In this document: positions 4,735-22,636 of the stretch, piece after piece
How the letters are laid out: each line of letters begins with the position of its first letter
Numbering within the stretch: position 1 is the stretch's first letter
IMG/VR virus record: IMGVR_UViG_3300050821_005767
Coordinates: 1 to 24,485 of that record
Strand: one strand, 5' to 3'
Length of the DNA: 24,485 nucleotides
Source: a virus
Notes under the pieces: model-generated
Databases searched by the model: none
What the model saw: the letters and a program-made list of their open reading frames with translations, nothing else
What the model was told of the DNA's origin: nothing
Program-made: the position numbers and the translations under genes

Positions 4735-4823
4735 GTGAACGCAGTGACTCTAATTTCCAGTCCAACCCGCCGGATTTCCGGCAACCTCCGTGCTTGCGGA
4801 ATGCGTTCACAGGGTTGGACTGG
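4735..4823. other. Crossing inverted repeats upstream of the HNH gene (possible pseudoknot)
   Basis: Two perfect inverted repeats interleave. GTGAACGCA (4735-4743) pairs with TGCGTTCAC (4802-4810). CCAGTCCAACCC (4757-4768) pairs with GGGTTGGACTGG (4812-4823). Since the order is A-B-A'-B', they form either alternative stems or a pseudoknot. A further hairpin GCCGGA-TT-TCCGGC (4769-4782) and a short TCCG...CGGA stem (4787-4800) lie inside. The structure ends 12 bp before the ATG of the HNH endonuclease. I cannot match it to a known ribozyme, intron core or riboswitch. Confidence 0.75.
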
Positions 4824-4835
4824 TTTTGGAGCCAA

Positions 4836-5498
4836 ATGAGCAAAGAATATTATCGAAAGAACAAGGCTGTTTTGCTTAAAAAACAGAAGGAGTATTATGA
4901 GAGAAATAAGGACTGGATTCTCGATAAACAGCGTCAATATTCCAAACAAAGGTATCTTGAGAATCGTGAAAGTATTTTGCAACGAACTAAAAAAGCAAAT
5001 GCCAAACGAAGGCTATTGAATCCAGAGTTAGTGAGGGATAAACAAAGACAATGGAGGGCTAAAAATAAGGAAAGATGCCGTGGGTATTACTACAATAACA
5101 AACCAAAAATTAGAGAGCAGGCCACTCGCTCTTGGATTAAAAGGTCTGCAAACAATCCAAAATTAAGACTCATTAAAAATCTCAGGAACCGCCTTCGTAA
5201 AGCCGTTGAAAGATACAAAACAATCAAATCCAAAAGCACGATGGATTTAATCGGATGCACCGCCTTAGAACTCAGAAAACACATTGAGGGAAAATTCAAA
5301 ACTGGAATGTCTTGGGATAATTATGGGCAGTGGCACATTGACCACATTATCCCTATTGCAGCTTTTGATATTCGCTGCCCGTTCCAGCAAAAAGAGGCGT
5401 TCAATTATAAAAATCTTCAACCTCTTTGGGGTCTGGATAATATCTCCAAAGGAGATAAACTCACCAAATCATTTCAGCCTAGTTTTTCTTTCATTTGA
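4836..5498 (+). CDS. Free-standing HNH homing-type endonuclease
   Basis: 220 aa. The C-terminal nuclease domain has WHIDHIIPIAAFD (HIDH at residues 167-170) and NYKNLQPLWGLDNISKGDK (NLQPLW at 193-198), the metal-binding and catalytic His/Asn layout of HNH endonucleases. The N-terminal ~70 residues are repeats of Y-x-x-N-x-x-x-x-L-x-x-K-Q-x-x-Y, a very basic DNA-binding region often seen in this HNH family. The ATG at 4836 has GGAG four bases upstream. A TTG at 4794 would add 14 residues and is less likely. The gene is A+T-rich compared with its neighbours and lies antisense between the portal and capsid genes, which are otherwise adjacent in related phages. This suggests a mobile homing endonuclease insertion that cuts uninserted relatives. 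Confidence 0.88.
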   Translation: MSKEYYRKNKAVLLKKQKEYYERNKDWILDKQRQYSKQRYLENRESILQRTKKANAKRRLLNPELVRDKQRQWRAKNKERCRGYYYNNKPKIREQATRSWIKRSANNPKLRLIKNLRNRLRKAVERYKTIKSKSTMDLIGCTALELRKHIEGKFKTGMSWDNYGQWHIDHIIPIAAFDIRCPFQQKEAFNYKNLQPLWGLDNISKGDKLTKSFQPSFSFI

Positions 5499-15138: not shown

Positions 15139-15342
15139 TCACAAGGCCAGTTGAGCCGCAATATCCCGGCAAGATGCCGTCTCGCAGAGGTCTTGGTGAC
15201 AGCCCGCCTCAAAATATTTATTAGCGCGGAGCATGACGATGCGGCGGAACTGTTCGGGCACACGGCGCATCAACGGTGCGTTGACCATGGGCGGAACTTT
15301 GCCGAGCGGTGAGGTTGCGAACCATGGCGGGAGTGGTTTCAT
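15139..15342 (-). CDS. Small hypothetical protein
   Basis: 67 aa. Sequence begins MKPLPPWFATSPLGKVPP, continues EQFRRIVMLRANKYFEAG and ends CHQDLCETASCRDIAAQLAL with three Cys. There is a proline-rich N-terminal segment, then a helix, then a Cys-containing helix. No family is recognised. The ATG overlaps the stop of the winged-helix gene upstream (ATGA), so it is probably translated in the same operon. No signal peptide or membrane span is seen. Confidence 0.6.
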   Translation of the reverse strand: MKPLPPWFATSPLGKVPPMVNAPLMRRVPEQFRRIVMLRANKYFEAGCHQDLCETASCRDIAAQLAL

Positions 15343-15782
15343 TCTTCGCTTCCTTGTTCACCGGGCAATGGATTGCCCTGACGACGCTTTCTCATCCCGT
15401 GTCTAATTTGAGTTTTTGCGGAGTTGCGGTTGTCCCGCTGCCATTTGGTTTTGTATTCCCGGCGATTCATGCCGCGCATTAAATTCTGATACACTTCACC
15501 GTTGAGAATCAGCCAGCCTTCCAAAACTTTTTGGATTCGACGGCCTTCGTGCGGTTGCGGTTCCACCCGCCTTTTGTCCGGCTCTGATAGAATGCGCAAC
15601 GCCTCCAATGTCTCCGCCTCGGTTTTGTTTGACCAACGTGAAATTTGAAAGGCCGAACCACGGCAGACATGGTCGTAATCTTTTTTCGCCAGCATGGTGA
15701 CAAAAACGATGCGGACAAAATCAGGTTCCAGCCAGATGGATGAATCCACAATACGGGAAAAAATTGGATTCCAATATTCCAT
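15339..15782 (-). CDS. Winged-helix phage replication-type protein (O/DnaD-like N-domain)
   Basis: 147 aa. It begins MEYWNPIFSRIVDSSIWLE, followed by VRIVFVTMLAKKDYDHVCRG, a recognition-type segment FQISRWSNKTEAETLEALRI and LSEPDKRRVEPQPHEGRRI, then LEGWLILNGEVYQNL. The order S-S-I-W...V-F-x-x-M-L-A-x-x-D...V...L/I-x-x-W...E-A-L-x-x-L-x-x-P-D...G-R-R-I-x-x-V...G-W-x-x-L-N recurs in phage proteins located beside replication genes and looks like the winged-helix domain of replication initiators. The C-terminus is strongly basic (residues ~105-140). It lies directly downstream of the repeat array at 15853-16131, which supports an origin-binding or helicase-loading role. That role is an inference. 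Confidence 0.65.
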   Translation of the reverse strand: MEYWNPIFSRIVDSSIWLEPDFVRIVFVTMLAKKDYDHVCRGSAFQISRWSNKTEAETLEALRILSEPDKRRVEPQPHEGRRIQKVLEGWLILNGEVYQNLMRGMNRREYKTKWQRDNRNSAKTQIRHGMRKRRQGNPLPGEQGSEE

Positions 15783-15818: not shown

Positions 15819-15836
15819 AAAAAACCCCTTTGGGGG
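15819..15836 (-). terminator. Short rho-independent terminator
   Basis: On the minus strand GGGG (15828-15825) pairs with CCCC (15835-15832) around an AAA loop and is followed by TTTTTT. The stem is only 4 bp but fully G-C. It lies between the iteron-like array and the 15782 gene, so it would end transcription coming from the primase side. Confidence 0.5.
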
Positions 15837-15852
15837 CCACGCTTCGGGAAAG

Positions 15853-16131
15853 CTGTATATGTATCTGTATATGTCCTCATAAAGTCCACATATGTCCACT
15901 TGTATCCACAAGTGTCCACGGTGTCAAGGGAGTCTGTGTCCGGCTTTGAAAGCAATCCAACACGCTTCTACTCTGCCACATGCAGAGATTTTGTATTGGT
16001 TTTTTTCAAACCATTCATCGAATTTATCAACTAACAAGTTGTCCACAGATTGAGTTTTTTTAGATGCTGATTTTCGTTTTTTCATGCTTTTTTTGACGTG
16101 TTTTAACATCAAATGTCCACACCTGTCCACA
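15853..16131. repeat. Helically phased GTCCAC repeats with DnaA-box-like members; candidate replication origin
   Basis: GTCCAC or ATCCAC occurs at 15884, 15894, 15904 and 15914, exactly 10 bp apart. A degenerate copy GTCCTC lies at 15873. Further copies are at 16041, 16115 and 16125, the last two again 10 bp apart. Extended 9-mers approach the DnaA box TTATCCACA: GTATCCACA (15902-15910) and TTGTCCACA (16039-16047) each differ by one base. A 12-bp direct repeat of CTGTATATGT (15853 and 15865) provides an adjacent A+T-rich stretch. A small gene (15924-16109) lies within the array. Placement between primase and replication-type genes fits an origin. Confidence 0.65.
15924..16109 (-). CDS. Small basic protein within the repeat array
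   Basis: 61 aa from the ATG at 16109; other possible starts are a GTG at 16130 (68 aa) and an ATG at 16085 (53 aa). None has a clear ribosome-binding site. The N-terminus is very basic (KHVKKSMKKRKSASKKTQ). The rest reads VDNLLVDKFDEWFEKNQYKI, then GRVEACWIAFKAGHRLP. The ending F-D-x-W-F...A-C-W-x-A-F-x-A-G is a common tail of small phage proteins of unknown function, in which A-x-x-A-W-x-A-G forms a helix. It lies between two halves of the GTCCAC array, one copy of which (16041-16046) is inside its coding sequence. A role in origin function is possible but unproven. Confidence 0.6.
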   Translation of the reverse strand: MLKHVKKSMKKRKSASKKTQSVDNLLVDKFDEWFEKNQYKISACGRVEACWIAFKAGHRLP

Positions 16132-16151
16132 TCATTGTAATTGATTGGTTA

Positions 16152-16943
16152 TTAGTGGTTTGACCATACAATTCCCATTAATTCACTCTCAACCACTTGC
16201 GACGTGCCACCCAAGCGGACAAACTCCCTCAAGTCTTTTGCTGGCGGCGTCCAGAGGCAGGTTTTGACGCCCAGCTCGGATTGCAGTTTGATGGCGCCGG
16301 CGGTTCCTGGCCCGTCATTGTCCGCCACGATGACCGCCATCCGCACGCCAATGCGGTTCAGCAGCGTCTTGATTTGGTCGCCCCCACCTTGGCAGCTTGG
16401 CCGGCCAATCGTCGGCAGGCCGATGGTTAGACCAGCGGCAACGTCAGTTGGCCCTTCCGTTATGAAAACCTTTGGGCACGTCTGGATTTGTGGATTGTAA
16501 AAGATGCCCTGCCGTGAACCGCGCACGGCCCATTTCCGGCCGTCATTGGCGCGGAGTCGGATGCCGATGATTTCACCGTAGCCGTCGCGCATTGGGAAGG
16601 CCCAAGCCAGATGCACACCGGCCCACACGCATCCAAAAGCCTCGAGAGAGTTGAGACTGACCCCAAGATTCTCAGCCAACAATCCCATGGCCGGCGTGAA
16701 GGTGTTTTTTGAAAACGTCCGCATCATGGCCGGGGCGTTCAATTCAGGTTCCTTTGGCCGTGGCGCGGGCCGCTCAATCTTCACATCGCCTTGGAATGGA
16801 TGAAACCAGCCGCCATTTTTGAAGGGGAAAGGCGAGGCAATCCGCATACATTTACTGCCACGGTCGCCCGTGCAGCACCAATCTGGCTTGCCGCAAATAA
16901 TGCACGGCTGATTTTTGGTGACGGCGGGCCAGATGTTGCTCAT
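16152..16943 (-). CDS. TOPRIM-domain DNA primase with N-terminal zinc motif
   Basis: 263 aa. The N-terminus carries a Cys cluster, CIIC (14-17), then C23-C24 and C32, resembling a primase zinc-binding domain. A central domain (residues ~80-150) has WAFPMRDGYGEIIGIRLRAN and the TOPRIM entry GIFYNP. The TOPRIM domain proper shows KVFITEGPTDVAAGL with the catalytic Glu163, and AVIVADNDGPGTAG with the D-x-D at 208-210. It closes with a PPAKDLREF-type motif. It would make RNA primers for phage replication, partnered with one of the helicases in this module. It is short for a full primase, with no fused helicase. Its ATG overlaps the stop of the 47-aa gene (ATGA). Confidence 0.88.
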   Translation of the reverse strand: MSNIWPAVTKNQPCIICGKPDWCCTGDRGSKCMRIASPFPFKNGGWFHPFQGDVKIERPAPRPKEPELNAPAMMRTFSKNTFTPAMGLLAENLGVSLNSLEAFGCVWAGVHLAWAFPMRDGYGEIIGIRLRANDGRKWAVRGSRQGIFYNPQIQTCPKVFITEGPTDVAAGLTIGLPTIGRPSCQGGGDQIKTLLNRIGVRMAVIVADNDGPGTAGAIKLQSELGVKTCLWTPPAKDLREFVRLGGTSQVVESELMGIVWSNH

Positions 16944-17083
16944 TTAGTTGGAGGATTTTTAATTTTCCCAGTGCCAGCGAAAATCGCGCACCAATCGAGT
17001 TTGAAAATCTCATTCCAAAACAGCCGCATCACCTTTTTTCTGCCTTTGCATTCAGGACATTTTATAAAATCAAAACGGCACAT
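16940..17083 (-). CDS. 47-aa zinc-finger-like microprotein between helicase and primase
   Basis: The ATG at 17083 lies inside the last codons of the helicase gene. The TGA at 16942-16940 overlaps the primase ATG (ATGA). The product starts MCRFDFIKCPECKGRKKVMR, continues LFWNEIFKLDWCAIFAGTGK and ends IKNPPTK. C-P-E-C-K-G-R-K-K-V and W-C-x-x-F-A-G-T-G-K-I are the two halves of a DnaJ-type C-x-x-C-x-G-x-G finger. In the second half the second cysteine is replaced, so metal binding may be incomplete. It fills the helicase-primase gap precisely. Its function is unknown; a replication accessory role is suggested only by position. Confidence 0.65.
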   Translation of the reverse strand: MCRFDFIKCPECKGRKKVMRLFWNEIFKLDWCAIFAGTGKIKNPPTK

Positions 17084-18827
17084 TTTCATTGACCGCCTCA
17101 ACCGGCCTTTTCCACCCATTCTCCTTTACCGCCGTAATCAGTTCGGAGGCCCGTTCAAAACTCACGTTCGTTTCGTAACCATACCGCTTGAGCAGCGCAG
17201 CCTGCTTAAGTGAGCATAATTTATTCTGCCAACGGTTCATCATCTCGCCAATCAATTGCTTCGCCTGCGCGTAGGGAATGGAATCAGGATTGATGCCCGC
17301 CCGCTGCAAAAAGCCAATCTGTTTTTCGCTCAATACTTTGAGCTCATCCCAGCCCCGTGTTTTGGCCGGTTCAATGTCCAGCACGTCAAACGGATTGATT
17401 GATTGCGTGGAATATTTACCCTTGGCAACGATGCGATTTTTGCGGGCTTCCTCCTGCAACCGTTTTTGTTCCATTTCGGCTTTAATCGCCGCTTCCTCCT
17501 CATCCAAAATCTCATTCACTTTGAACGTGCCCTTGCCGCTTCTGATTTTCAGCGTGGCCCGTCCCACCGCCTCATCACTGACATGGCCTCCGAGAATATC
17601 CGCCAGGCAAACCAGCTTATGCTTGCCAGCATTGCCAACGGTATCGAGCAACGTCGCAAATGGTTTTGCGCTGGCGGCAATTGCCGCAATGCGTTCCTCT
17701 TTGGTTTCCAACCCATCAATGACACCGCGCAATGCGCGAGTGCTCCTGCCAGCGATTTGCGCGTAAAGCCGCCGCGATTTAGTTGGCCGTCCATTCACAA
17801 TCAGTTCAATGCCCGGCGAATCAAAGCCAACCGCGTGCGTGCCGTAATTGCAGAGCAACGGGATTTTTCCATCATTGAAGTCGGCATTGATTTTGCGCCG
17901 CAAATCCTTGTCCGTCTTGCCGCACACAAACGCCGCCATGCCGTGGATGATGCGGTTGAAAATATTGCACAGCGTTTCCGCGTGTTTGACTGATGCGCCA
18001 AAAGCCAGCGTGCGCTTGGGTGTCTTGTTTTCAACCTGCGCGGCCCAAAGCGCGGGGTCAACATTCAGCAATGAATTTTCCTCAAGGTCATACATCGCCT
18101 CAAAAACACCCATCACGACATCTTGAACCTGTTGCTCGCCCTCCATCACCTTCGCCAAGTCCGCGCCGTTCAAATCGCCGCACGCTGTCCGAATGTGCGA
18201 GAAGTCCGCGCCATGCAGATGCACCGTGCGCTGCCGCACGTCCACGAGCCAGCCATTTTCAATCGCCCATTCCAATTCCAAATCAAAGGCGACACTGTTG
18301 AATATATGGCCCAAACTTTCCTCATCGGTGCGGTCGGGTGTGGCTGTCACCCCGAGGATTTTCAGGTTTGGATTCGTGGAATAATAATCAATGGCGCGGC
18401 GAAAGCTGGCCGAGGTTGCGCCGTCCGCCTCATCGAGAATCAGCACGCCAAAATCCATCGGGTCAAACTTGGACATGCGCCCTCCACCGTCCCCGCCAGC
18501 GCATTGCGTTTGAATCGTGGAGACAATGACATTCGACTGGCCGTATAGTGTCTCAGTGGCGGCGCGGTATTCGCCCATTTCAATCTCACAGTTTAGGCCG
18601 GTAAATTCCGTGATGCGTTCCACCGCCTGAAATATCAATTCCTTGCCGTTAGCGAGCACCATCGCTTTTGTTTTGCGCGGGAAATAAGACCGCAACACCC
18701 GCTGAATCACGGCGGCGAAGATGACCGTCTTGCCGAGGCCGGTTGCCGCCACGCCCAAAGTGGAAAGGTTTTCCTCCCATTCTTTGAAAACGGATTCAAG
18801 GCAATCGCGCTGATAATCTCTCAACAT
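17070..18827 (-). CDS. SF2 DEAD-box-type helicase
   Basis: 585 aa. It has the full SF2 order: a Q-motif-like RDYQRDCL at the N-terminus, Walker A ATGLGKT (28-34), DEAD (132-135), motif III TAT (161-163), then the second RecA domain with NYGTHAVGFDSPGIELIV and motif VI QIAGRSTR (357-364). The C-terminal ~150 residues contain a charged helix (EEEAAIKAEMEQKRLQEEA) and two short helical repeats with LSEKQIGFLQRAGI and LKQAALLKRYGYE...SFERASELI. The last recalls small helical modules at the end of phage helicases. Such helicases are often encoded beside phage primases and may open the origin or restart forks. The start overlaps the upstream stop by 7 bp. Confidence 0.9.
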   Translation of the reverse strand: MLRDYQRDCLESVFKEWEENLSTLGVAATGLGKTVIFAAVIQRVLRSYFPRKTKAMVLANGKELIFQAVERITEFTGLNCEIEMGEYRAATETLYGQSNVIVSTIQTQCAGGDGGGRMSKFDPMDFGVLILDEADGATSASFRRAIDYYSTNPNLKILGVTATPDRTDEESLGHIFNSVAFDLELEWAIENGWLVDVRQRTVHLHGADFSHIRTACGDLNGADLAKVMEGEQQVQDVVMGVFEAMYDLEENSLLNVDPALWAAQVENKTPKRTLAFGASVKHAETLCNIFNRIIHGMAAFVCGKTDKDLRRKINADFNDGKIPLLCNYGTHAVGFDSPGIELIVNGRPTKSRRLYAQIAGRSTRALRGVIDGLETKEERIAAIAASAKPFATLLDTVGNAGKHKLVCLADILGGHVSDEAVGRATLKIRSGKGTFKVNEILDEEEAAIKAEMEQKRLQEEARKNRIVAKGKYSTQSINPFDVLDIEPAKTRGWDELKVLSEKQIGFLQRAGINPDSIPYAQAKQLIGEMMNRWQNKLCSLKQAALLKRYGYETNVSFERASELITAVKENGWKRPVEAVNENVPF

Positions 18828-20078: not shown

Positions 20079-20304
20079 CTTTTCCCTCCGTTGGAATCTT
20101 CGCCGTCAAACTGCTTAACGGAAACCAATCGCGCTTTGTCCGTTCCACTGTCGGGCAGTATTGGATTTTGACGCAGCCATGATTCGTGTCCACCACTTCC
20201 GACTGAAAGAATTTAATCTTGACCGATGGCAGTTTTTTCATCAGGAAAATCACGTCGCCCTTTTTGGGCAGGGCGGTTAGGGGGTTGGGGAAGTCGGTTG
20301 GCAT
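20071..20304 (-). CDS. Small hypothetical protein between two methyltransferase genes
   Basis: 77 aa. It begins MPTDFPNPLTALPKKGDVIF, continues LMKKLPSVKIKFFQSEVVDT and VKIQYCPTVERTKRDWFPLS. The K-K-G-D-V-I-F-L opening and later strand-rich part suggest a small beta barrel (SH3/OB-like). No family is recognised. It overlaps the methyltransferase stop by 28 bp and the C5-methylase start by 8 bp, a degree of overlap that supports co-translation. Confidence 0.6.
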   Translation of the reverse strand: MPTDFPNPLTALPKKGDVIFLMKKLPSVKIKFFQSEVVDTNHGCVKIQYCPTVERTKRDWFPLSSLTAKIPTEGKGE

Positions 20305-21278
20305 AAAGTTTTCAAATCGCTTTCTACAATAAACTGGCCTTGTTCGCTCTTTTCAGTAAGCGCGTGTTTGAGATTCTTTAATGCCTGCCGGAAATAAGAC
20401 GGCTTCAATTCCACTCCCAAGCCAAGCCTGCCCATTGTCACCGCGCCATACACTTCCGAACCGACACCCATAAAGGGCGTGAACACTTTTTCAGCTGGGT
20501 TTGACCAAAGCGTGATGCACCGTTCAATCACATCCAGTTGCAATGGGTGCACATGTTTTTCATCTTCGGAATCCTTTGATTCACGAAACGGCAGCACCCT
20601 TTCAAGCCGGATGTCATCCCAAAAAGCCGAGGCATATTGCCGCCAAATCCAATGTGAATAACGGTTCTGAATCTGGTTGCCGGTCCAGCCGCGATACTGC
20701 ATCAGGTCATGTGGAATAACGCGGCTGCCTGCATAATCCATCAAGCCTTGCGGATGCGCGATGGCCACTGGATTTTTACCCGCCTTGCGAAAGACCACCA
20801 AATAATCCGCTGAGGCCACGGAACACCGCGACGAATCTTCGACCACGGTTTTGTGCGCGAGGTTCTTTGCCATGGTGCGGTTGCGAACCGCCAGCGGCTC
20901 CTTCCAAATCGCATAGCGGGCGATGAATTTCCAACCTTCTTCCTCGTGCAACCGGATGATGTCTCCGGGAAAATCGGTCATGTTGTCAATCCCGCAATTT
21001 CCACTAGGCACGTCCATGCAATGCACACAGGTCATGCGGCCCGGCATCGTCAACCGCGCCAGTTCCTTCACCACAAAACGGTAGTGCTCAAAAAACTGCC
21101 GATAATCTTTGCAGTTGGAAAGGTCACGCTCGTTGGAGCTGTAATGATACAAGCCACCGAACGGGGGGGAGTAGATGGACAGATGGATTTTATTGTCCGG
21201 CAACTTTGCCATGGTTTCAATGCAATCGCCGTTCCAGATGGCGAAGCGTTCGTGAATTTCCTGTTTTAAGACAGCCAT
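20277..21278 (-). CDS. Beta-class DNA methyltransferase (N4-cytosine or N6-adenine)
   Basis: 333 aa. The N-terminal motif IV SPPFGG (37-42) follows an N-G-D-C-I-E motif. The SAM-binding motif I, VFTPFMGVGSE (265-275), lies near the C-terminus, and HPLQLDVIERCITLWSNP precedes it. This IV-then-I order is the beta class. SPPF is more typical of N4-cytosine enzymes, while DPPY is typical of N6-adenine enzymes. The middle (residues ~100-240) is the target-recognition region. Such phage-encoded methylases protect against host restriction or mark the genome. It overlaps the Snf2 helicase stop by 13 bp, so the two are translated together; pairs of this kind are common in phages. Confidence 0.9.
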   Translation of the reverse strand: MAVLKQEIHERFAIWNGDCIETMAKLPDNKIHLSIYSPPFGGLYHYSSNERDLSNCKDYRQFFEHYRFVVKELARLTMPGRMTCVHCMDVPSGNCGIDNMTDFPGDIIRLHEEEGWKFIARYAIWKEPLAVRNRTMAKNLAHKTVVEDSSRCSVASADYLVVFRKAGKNPVAIAHPQGLMDYAGSRVIPHDLMQYRGWTGNQIQNRYSHWIWRQYASAFWDDIRLERVLPFRESKDSEDEKHVHPLQLDVIERCITLWSNPAEKVFTPFMGVGSEVYGAVTMGRLGLGVELKPSYFRQALKNLKHALTEKSEQGQFIVESDLKTLCQPTSPTP

Positions 21279-22636
21279 GCGGGTATTTCCTCCGGGTTGT
21301 TAAAGGTGACGTTTTTGTTGATGGACGCGAACTGATTCATTTCCCTGACCAATGACGAAAACATTTTGTCGGCGGCGATGGCTTTGCGCTGGTAATTTTT
21401 CACCACGTTTTTCTCGCCCTCCGTGGTGACAGTTTCAACGGTGACGGTTTGTTTCTGGCCGAACCGCCAGCAACGGCGCACACCCTGATACCGTTGCTCG
21501 AATGAGTGCGACGGAAAATCCGTCATGTGGTGACAGTGCTGCCAGTTCAAGCCCCATCCCGCAATCTTCTGCTTGGTCACCAGTTTGGGAATTTTTCCAG
21601 CGGTAAAGGCTTCCAGCTTTTCCTCTTTTTCATCATCGGAATCCCTGCCGCTCACCTGAACGCAATTTTTAATCAGCTTTTCCAATAAATCACCCTCGGG
21701 GTTCAGATGACACCACGACACCGATGCGCCCTTGGATTTATTGACCAGCTCGGCAACTTTTTCACATCGCTGATTCAACGTGGCACGCCGCTCTTCCCGT
21801 TGTTCACGCAACCCAATTGCGGGCATGGTGAATAAATATCCGTTGGCAACCTCAGCCACCTCCACCACATGCTCAATCTCTTTTAATGGCGGCAGTTTGA
21901 ATTTGGCATCTAAAAATCCAAGGTCAGACGGCTTTCGCAAGGCGCGGCCCCATGAAACTATCCACCGCCAAAACGGTTGCTCGGCATGGCCTTTGAACCG
22001 CCATTTAACCATGTTCCCATGATGCCTCCCGGTGCTGGAATTATTGTGGTCATTTTTGAAGAAACGATTGAGCATGTCCATGTAGCCAAGCTCACCCAAA
22101 TACTCCGCGCTGGTGCCAAGTTCAATGTAATCATTCGGCGCGGCGGTCGCCGTCCAGAGCGAGCGATAAGGAATCTTCCTTGAAAACTCCGTCACGGCGG
22201 CCTTGGTTGCGCCGTCAAACGATTTCAAGATGGACGATTCGTCACAGGCAATGCCGATGAAATTGTTCGGGTTGAAATGTTTCAACCGCTCGTAATTGGT
22301 GACCACAATTCCGTTGCTCAATTTTCCATCCCGCGAACGGAAAACTTCAATGCCAAACTTTTCACCCTCCTTGACATGCTGATGCGACACGGCCAGCGGC
22401 GTCAAAATCAAAACCCGCTTGCTGGTTTTGCGGACGATGTTCTCAGCCCAAACCAGTTGCATCGGGCTTTTTCCAAGGCCACAGTCGGCGAACACACCGC
22501 AGCGACCTTTTAGAATGGCCCATTCAACCAGCGCCTTTTGAAAATCAAACAGAAAATCCGGCATCCAAACCGGCTCAAATCCCGACTGATTTCCAAGTTG
22601 AGATTTGCGCTCTAAAAATATTTCGTAATCACTCAT
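21266..22636 (-). CDS. Snf2-family DNA helicase/translocase
   Basis: 456 aa. Motifs: an N-terminal LFDFQKALVEWAILKGR (Q-type), Walker A DCGLGKS (51-57), VVTNYERLKHF, DESSILKS (132-139), and a motif III-like LWTATAAPNDYIELGTSAEY (160-179). There are two characteristic Snf2 segments in the second domain, KQKIAGWGLNWQHCHHMT and QRYQGVRRCWRFGQ (381-394). It lacks accessory domains. Snf2-type proteins lying next to a DNA methylase are a recurrent phage pair. Suggested roles are ATP-driven DNA translocation to aid modification or to displace restriction and other proteins. The last Walker A residue is Ser, not Thr, which still fits the family. Confidence 0.9.
   Translation of the reverse strand: MSDYEIFLERKSQLGNQSGFEPVWMPDFLFDFQKALVEWAILKGRCGVFADCGLGKSPMQLVWAENIVRKTSKRVLILTPLAVSHQHVKEGEKFGIEVFRSRDGKLSNGIVVTNYERLKHFNPNNFIGIACDESSILKSFDGATKAAVTEFSRKIPYRSLWTATAAPNDYIELGTSAEYLGELGYMDMLNRFFKNDHNNSSTGRHHGNMVKWRFKGHAEQPFWRWIVSWGRALRKPSDLGFLDAKFKLPPLKEIEHVVEVAEVANGYLFTMPAIGLREQREERRATLNQRCEKVAELVNKSKGASVSWCHLNPEGDLLEKLIKNCVQVSGRDSDDEKEEKLEAFTAGKIPKLVTKQKIAGWGLNWQHCHHMTDFPSHSFEQRYQGVRRCWRFGQKQTVTVETVTTEGEKNVVKNYQRKAIAADKMFSSLVREMNQFASINKNVTFNNPEEIPAWLS

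Follow-up and report, generated by a model that had tools for sequence, protein, structure and literature searches.

The lambda O protein binds the origin within its own gene, and lambda ori comprises an A+T-rich region and four iterons (six in Stx phages), each of which is bound on both sides of a centre (PMC7466680). SPP1 gp38 also binds an origin within its own gene; it binds both oriL and oriR, which are composed of direct repeats and an A+T-rich unwinding region, one origin being situated inside the initiator gene and the other elsewhere (PMC6316719). RepA_N initiators of the PLEs, satellites of Vibrio cholerae, combine a swappable DNA-binding domain with cognate iterons that are semi-palindromic and about 30 bp in length (PMC7145576, PMC8263062), and it has been reported that PLE initiator and iteron covary and function only as matched pairs (PMC8263062). 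The Rac prophage is reported to contain an active origin, oriJ (PMC3945230). In uncultivated phages, origins are almost never known.

Here we analyse a linear virus record of 24,485 bp, taken over its whole length and called the window, in which genes for terminase, portal and capsid are present. It belongs to a family which, like lambda O and its ori, has an initiator-type protein with a DNA-binding part and repeated sites in or beside its own gene. Our analysis suggests that positions 15853–16130 are likely to form a phage replication origin module, with boxes predicted to be bound by a 147-aa winged-helix protein.

The phased array and its surroundings

The features of the region are given below; coordinates are those of the window.

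15339–15782, − strand: 147-aa winged-helix protein, short member of a phage initiator-like family (homology, alignment, model, structural neighbours)
15823–15838, − strand: terminator-like hairpin (CCCC-AAA-GGGG-TTTTTT), between the array and the winged-helix start codon; weak
15853–15872, + strand: 6-bp-periodic tract CTGTAT-ATGTAT-CTGTAT-AT, abutting the array
15873–15919, + strand: helically phased array of putative initiator boxes, GTCCTC 15873, GTCCAC 15884, GTCCAC 15894, ATCCAC 15904 and GTCCAC 15914, at steps of 11, 10, 10 and 10 (sequence, shuffles, Tandem Repeats Finder, same array type in or beside homologous winged-helix genes)
15924–16130, − strand: 68-aa ORF between the array and the primase gene, without family match
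16001–16160, no strand: A+T-rich stretch (66–71% A+T in 80-bp windows), candidate unwinding region
16039–16047, + strand: single box TTGTCCACA, within the A+T-rich stretch and the 68-aa ORF
16115–16130, + strand: second phased pair, GTCCAC 16115 and GTCCAC 16125 (sequence)
16152–16943, − strand: DNA primase-like protein (phrog_47, E 2.9e-9)
17070–18827, − strand: SF2 helicase (ResIII/DEAD, phrog_16), adjoining the primase gene

The + strand from 15853 to 15919 reads CTGTATATGTATCTGTATAT-GTCCTC-ATAAA-GTCCAC-ATAT-GTCCAC-TTGT-ATCCAC-AAGT-GTCCAC. A preliminary description of this DNA had reported four GTCCAC copies at exact 10-bp steps. Three of them (15884, 15894 and 15914) are exact, but the copy at 15904 is ATCCAC, so that the four share the form RTCCAC. 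A degenerate fifth copy, GTCCTC at 15873, is located 11 bp ahead of the first GTCCAC, and Tandem Repeats Finder, unprompted, reported a repeat of period 10 with 5.0 copies at 15869–15919 and the consensus ATATGTCCAC. The phased pair at 16115 and 16125 is present as previously described, and a further single GTCCAC is found at 16041; all three have the same direction (+) as the boxes of the array.

The array is real. Neither 2000 dinucleotide shuffles of the 700-bp surroundings nor 200 shuffles of the whole window contained any hexamer four times at 10-bp steps, allowing at most one mismatch, and the array is the sole place in the window with such an arrangement. The hexamer is present 14 times in the window against 8.9 expected; the exceptional feature is the phasing, whereas the hexamer alone is not rare.

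Nearly all of the likely genes of the record are on the − strand, where the order is SF2 helicase, primase-like protein, 68-aa ORF, array and 147-aa winged-helix protein. The 68-aa ORF probably starts at the ATG just downstream of the 16115/16125 pair. Neighbours named in the preliminary description were all recovered, namely an A+T-rich direct repeat near the array (CTGTATATGT at 15853 and 15865), the adjoining primase gene, and the adjoining winged-helix gene, whose fold is backed by a model. The larger A+T-rich stretch lies between the array and the 16115/16125 pair, reaching just past the pair; it is at least 80 bp away from the array and does not directly adjoin it. Terminator-like hairpins are weakly enriched in the 1-kb region (4 found, 1.4 expected), and none of the described RNA families matched. 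GC skew gave no support for an origin in this 24-kb record, where it is uninformative because the record is a linear fragment with nearly all genes in one direction.

The SF2 helicase gene is paired with the primase gene in the window and in several relatives. Relatives of the primase are present in viral contigs and in sampled Verrucomicrobiota-centred genomes, with four clear relatives in 288 genomes of the Verrucomicrobiales-centred phylum group. Among 387 genomes of the phylum group around the Verrucomicrobiales genome behind locus L121 (L numbers denote the loci compared), the winged-helix family gave at most one match, which is weak and contains stops. A Verrucomicrobiota host is a lead only.

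Elsewhere in the window, positions 1–147 contain a tandem repeat with a 27-bp unit (AACGCGACAATCTCCGACGTGCGGGGC; 5.4 copies, 95% matches), which continues past the first base of the record and has several frames open. A 140-aa C5-cytosine methylase-like ORF (PF00145; 19656–20078, − strand) has the PCQDIS catalytic segment and, almost immediately after it, a NRLRAIGNGQVP-like end, so that the central, target-recognising part seems to be absent. At 20277–22636 (− strand) an N6/N4 methyltransferase adjoins an SNF2-like helicase, and strong homologues of the two occur together upstream of the winged-helix genes in L267, L285 and L291. Between the capsid and portal genes there is a 234-aa ORF (4794–5498, + strand), HNH-like by eye and without a Pfam match, in a stretch of lower G+C (about 41%).

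Phased arrays in a family of winged-helix genes

Searches of Pfam, PHROGs and NCBIfam gave no match to the 147-aa protein, and none of the three places it in the O-like initiator family. Its AlphaFold2 model (mean pLDDT 92.4) reveals a helix-turn-helix followed by a two-strand wing. The nearest viral structures include, by name, a replication initiator, a replication protein, a replisome organizer and DUF1376, the DUF1376 proteins being weak structural neighbours only. Structural neighbours in the PDB are mostly generic winged helices, and no sequence relative was found there.

A DNA-only search of 2.9 million viral contigs for four RTCCAC copies at 10-bp steps yielded 22 loci. Control scans yielded 84 loci for RTCCAC at 11-bp steps, mostly canonical DnaA-box arrays of TTATCCACAGG, and 9 loci for the mirror motif at 10-bp steps. 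Pattern counts alone are therefore weak evidence, and our argument is based on gene linkage instead. A pattern scan of genome contigs (at least 119 loci) was set aside, many of its arrays being without a winged-helix gene.

The viral loci include other box arrangements. L027, L029, L045, L095 and many others of L026–L109 carry tandem canonical DnaA boxes in runs of up to about six, spaced at exactly 11 bp. L033, L051 and L061 have a phrog_2509-type initiator with direct GTCCAC boxes at 11-bp steps, after which L033 has inverted GTGGAC boxes as well as a GAAGAG tract.

Comparison of the 147-aa protein with all ORFs of the fetched loci gave outside matches only to L020/L025 (phmmer, E 2.7e-14) and L018 (E 1e-4), and a homologue in L008 was added by profile search. 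In all four loci the array is located inside the homologous winged-helix gene, in the linker just past the winged-helix domain, and L020 has two additional GTGTGGACA boxes shortly ahead of its start codon. The family is defined by the winged-helix domain together with hexamers in the linker or in flanking DNA, phased at 9–12 bp or at roughly two to three turns, and the window has both a homologous domain and a phased hexamer array. Several of the relatives match replication-initiation PHROGs, the O-like match of L020 to phrog_345 being at E 0.004 only. Among the 68 members of the family alignment (A2), one matched Phage_rep_org_N (PF09681) at E 0.0018, short of the curated score and with no match for the window protein, and none matched RepA_N at E 0.01. 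A tblastn search with four family members against 50,697 phage records returned no match.

Protein-only retrieval with alignment A1 gave 80 loci, of which 65 were left after dropping the starting loci and near-identical copies, and the gene neighbourhood of each was searched without a preset motif. Chains of at least three hexamers phased at ~10 bp were found in 29 of the 65 relatives and in 3 of 272 control windows drawn from these relatives' contigs (Fisher 1.3e-20), and chains of at least four in 13/65 and 0/272 (Fisher 1.8e-10); the loci are related, so that these counts and statistics are not fully independent events. The preliminary description had raised the case of relatives keeping the genes without the repeats; winged-helix relatives carry phased repeats far above controls. 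The strict criterion gave no chain in 36 of the 65, some of which (L264, L288, L310, L315 and L316) have 9-bp-spaced copies that it excludes. Distances between identical hexamers peak at 9–11, 19–21 and 29–31 bp in the linker and at 9–11 and 19–21 bp upstream of the gene, and hexamer pairs at 10 bp are enriched over control about 55-fold in the linker and about 12-fold upstream. Chains were present in 23 of 54 real genes against 79 of 5400 synonymous-codon shuffles. Because synonymous shuffling destroys them, the arrays are selected as DNA and the phasing is not a by-product of the protein.

This comparison bears on the view that the array is a functionless tandem repeat made by chance or slippage. 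The mirror-image motif at 10 bp is also present in viral contigs (9 against 22 loci), and several pattern matches are located far from replication genes, as such a view would allow. However, the shuffles did not reproduce the array, the spacers between the boxes of the window differ from each other unlike those of a fresh slippage repeat, and motif-changing arrays recur in association with one protein family. The family comparison already makes an origin by chance or slippage unlikely, and we regard this explanation as extremely improbable.

The hexamer sequence varies between phages while its position is constant. The motifs found in the relatives are as follows.

GTAACG: L257, L272, L273; upstream in L295
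GTCACG: L244, L260, L282
GTGACG: L246, L248
GTAAAC: L278, L296
GTAAGC: L259, L270
GTCAGCC: L243, L298
GTCCGC: L289, L294
GTCAAC: upstream in L242
TCAACC: upstream in L240

Long genes have the array inside, about 345–460 bp beyond the point where the winged-helix match begins. In short genes (about 350–530 bp) it is found outside, either upstream (window, L240, L250, L255 and L295) or at or after the stop codon (L270 and L281), and in L242 (696 bp) the clearest array is also upstream. The window is a short-protein member of the family with an outside array. A constant place and phasing with a changing motif is as expected for cognate initiator sites.

The variety of motifs also bears on the suggestion that the boxes are DnaA boxes recruiting host DnaA. 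Two 9-mers, GTATCCACA at 15902–15910 and TTGTCCACA at 16039–16047, are indeed one base off the DnaA box TTATCCACA as noted earlier, and true DnaA-box arrays of TTATCCACAGG at 11-bp steps are common in viral contigs. However, none of the seven sites of the window is an exact TTATCCACA, five of them having two or three mismatches, and related phages have unrelated hexamers in the same place, such as the GTAACG, GTCACG, GTAAAC and GTCAGCC arrays, which are not DnaA boxes. Host DnaA is unlikely as the general binder because most of the motifs are not DnaA-like, and we consider its recruitment by the array of the window very unlikely.

Relatives found through the primase (L002, L003 and L327–L330), with no winged-helix gene adjoining, had no GTCCAC-type array in the stretches examined, which links the array to the winged-helix gene rather than to the primase; L328 has an unrelated 11-bp GATCGG repeat. 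No covariation was seen between the motif and the predicted recognition helix. Phages with GTCCAC boxes have dissimilar recognition helices, so that the winged-helix protein is a putative binder. No description of such arrays was found in the literature searched, most subscription journals being outside the search.

A 6-bp-periodic tract and the origin reading

Many of the arrays adjoin a (CAGNNN)n tract, in which CAG, or CTG on the opposite strand, recurs every 6 bp. At least four CAG units are present in 33 of 65 loci against 1 of 206 control windows, and at least four CTG units in 4 of 65 against 1 of 206. In long genes the tract mostly encodes (Ala-Glu/Asp)n, an AEAEAE linker, and all of its alanine codons are GCA (123/123), compared with 166/756 elsewhere in the same genes. 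In the short-gene members L240, L250, L251, L283 and L295, a CTG-rich tract is located upstream, in non-coding DNA beside the boxes. These GCA-only alanines and non-coding CTG tracts lead us to the view that the tract is best seen as a DNA element. In the window this position is taken by the direct repeat of the preliminary description, with units at 15853, 15859, 15865 and 15871 (two CTG and two ATG), an imperfect counterpart of the (CTGNNN)n/(CAGNNN)n of its relatives.

CTG is the trinucleotide primed by gammaproteobacterial DnaG (PMC5204125). Tentatively, the tract might be a second, so far undescribed origin element which offers 5'-CTG-3' every 6 nt on one strand as a cluster of primase start sites or as a track for single-strand loading; a general loading or unwinding track is equally open as an alternative to the start-site cluster. 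If the tract is such an element, it is the underlying DNA that accounts for the alternating Ala-Glu/Asp linkers found in many phage initiators, and in phages with a short protein, such as that of the window, the tract is placed outside the gene along with the boxes.

It is also conceivable that the boxes are not an origin and instead form an operator array, used by the winged-helix protein, or by another phage repressor, to control how the replication genes are transcribed. In the window, both the array and the second pair occupy intergenic gaps, ahead of the winged-helix gene and of the 68-aa ORF, and the two GTGTGGACA boxes of L020 immediately precede its start codon, as could be expected of operators. 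However, the boxes of most relatives are present about 350 bp inside the gene, past the winged-helix domain, which is an odd place for an operator. The terminator-like hairpin, although weak, separates the array of the window from the winged-helix gene, and it is not evident what the adjoining (CAGNNN)n tract would do in repression. Since most arrays are situated well within the gene, a purely regulatory function is less probable, and we consider the operator explanation unlikely.

The array is best read, from its sequence and that of its relatives, as the part of a phage replication origin that holds the binding sites of a winged-helix initiator, comparable to lambda ori in gene O. Besides the arrays themselves, this reading draws on the winged-helix fold, the initiator-type structural neighbours, the PHROG matches of relatives, the DUF1376/YdaU-type genes with Rac oriJ, and the precedents of lambda O and SPP1 gp38. 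Against it stand the lack of visible covariation between motif and recognition helix, the 36 relatives in which the strict criterion gave no chain, a GC skew that lends no support, and the imperfect tract of the window with just two CTG units. The candidate origin, the helix-phased sites and the linkage to the winged-helix gene given in the preliminary description are thus retained, whereas its DnaA-box reading is not. We infer binding of the array by the winged-helix protein, opening of DNA by the resulting complex and a start of replication in this region. The 147-aa protein would bind the GTCCAC boxes, and boxes one helical turn apart would align several molecules on one face of the DNA to form an initiation complex. 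This complex may open nearby DNA, either the A+T-rich stretch (16001–16160) or the 6-bp-periodic tract (15853–15872) or both, on which the phage helicase and primase encoded next door, or host enzymes, could begin replication.

Helix-phased, phage-specific boxes in or beside an initiator gene, often with a CAG-periodic tract, provide a signature for candidate origins from sequence alone, which could make origin prediction possible in many unstudied viruses. The matched initiator and box pairs are also material for studying how DNA-binding specificity changes, and the tract suggests that the make-up of a common low-complexity protein linker follows from the function of its DNA.

Comparison with known initiator and origin systems

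With the PLE system the window family would share a swappable DNA-binding domain of the initiator and cognate sites; it differs in that the window protein has no RepA_N match and its sites are hexamer boxes instead of iterons of about 30 bp. It resembles SPP1 oriL and oriR in having direct repeats plus an A+T-rich region, a likeness of layout.

Like lambda O, the window protein has an N-terminal winged-helix DNA-binding domain, as indicated by its AlphaFold2 model and PDB neighbours, but unlike lambda O it has no match to O-like PHROGs. The hexamers of the window family are directly repeated every 10 bp with motifs that differ between phages, unlike lambda iterons. Unlike lambda ori, the array of the window is located outside the initiator gene, upstream of it, whereas it is internal in the longer relatives L020, L243 and L272. 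In these long relatives, as in gene O with its lambda ori, the repeats are present in a linker past the DNA-binding domain, and special DNA adjacent to the repeats of the family may serve for opening.

DUF1376/YdaU-type initiators, including those of Rac, epsilon15, phiPSA1, Olaya and others, were reached from the GTCCAC-array locus L033. Their genes have GTAACGC or GTCCGC boxes past the DNA-binding domain, followed by a GAGAAG purine tract and then by A+T-rich DNA. The window protein has only weak structural similarity to these proteins and no sequence match, and unlike the window family they have direct and then inverted boxes and a tract of GAGAAG, not CAGNNN. Their box repertoire overlaps that of the window family, and the boxes occupy the same position in the gene.
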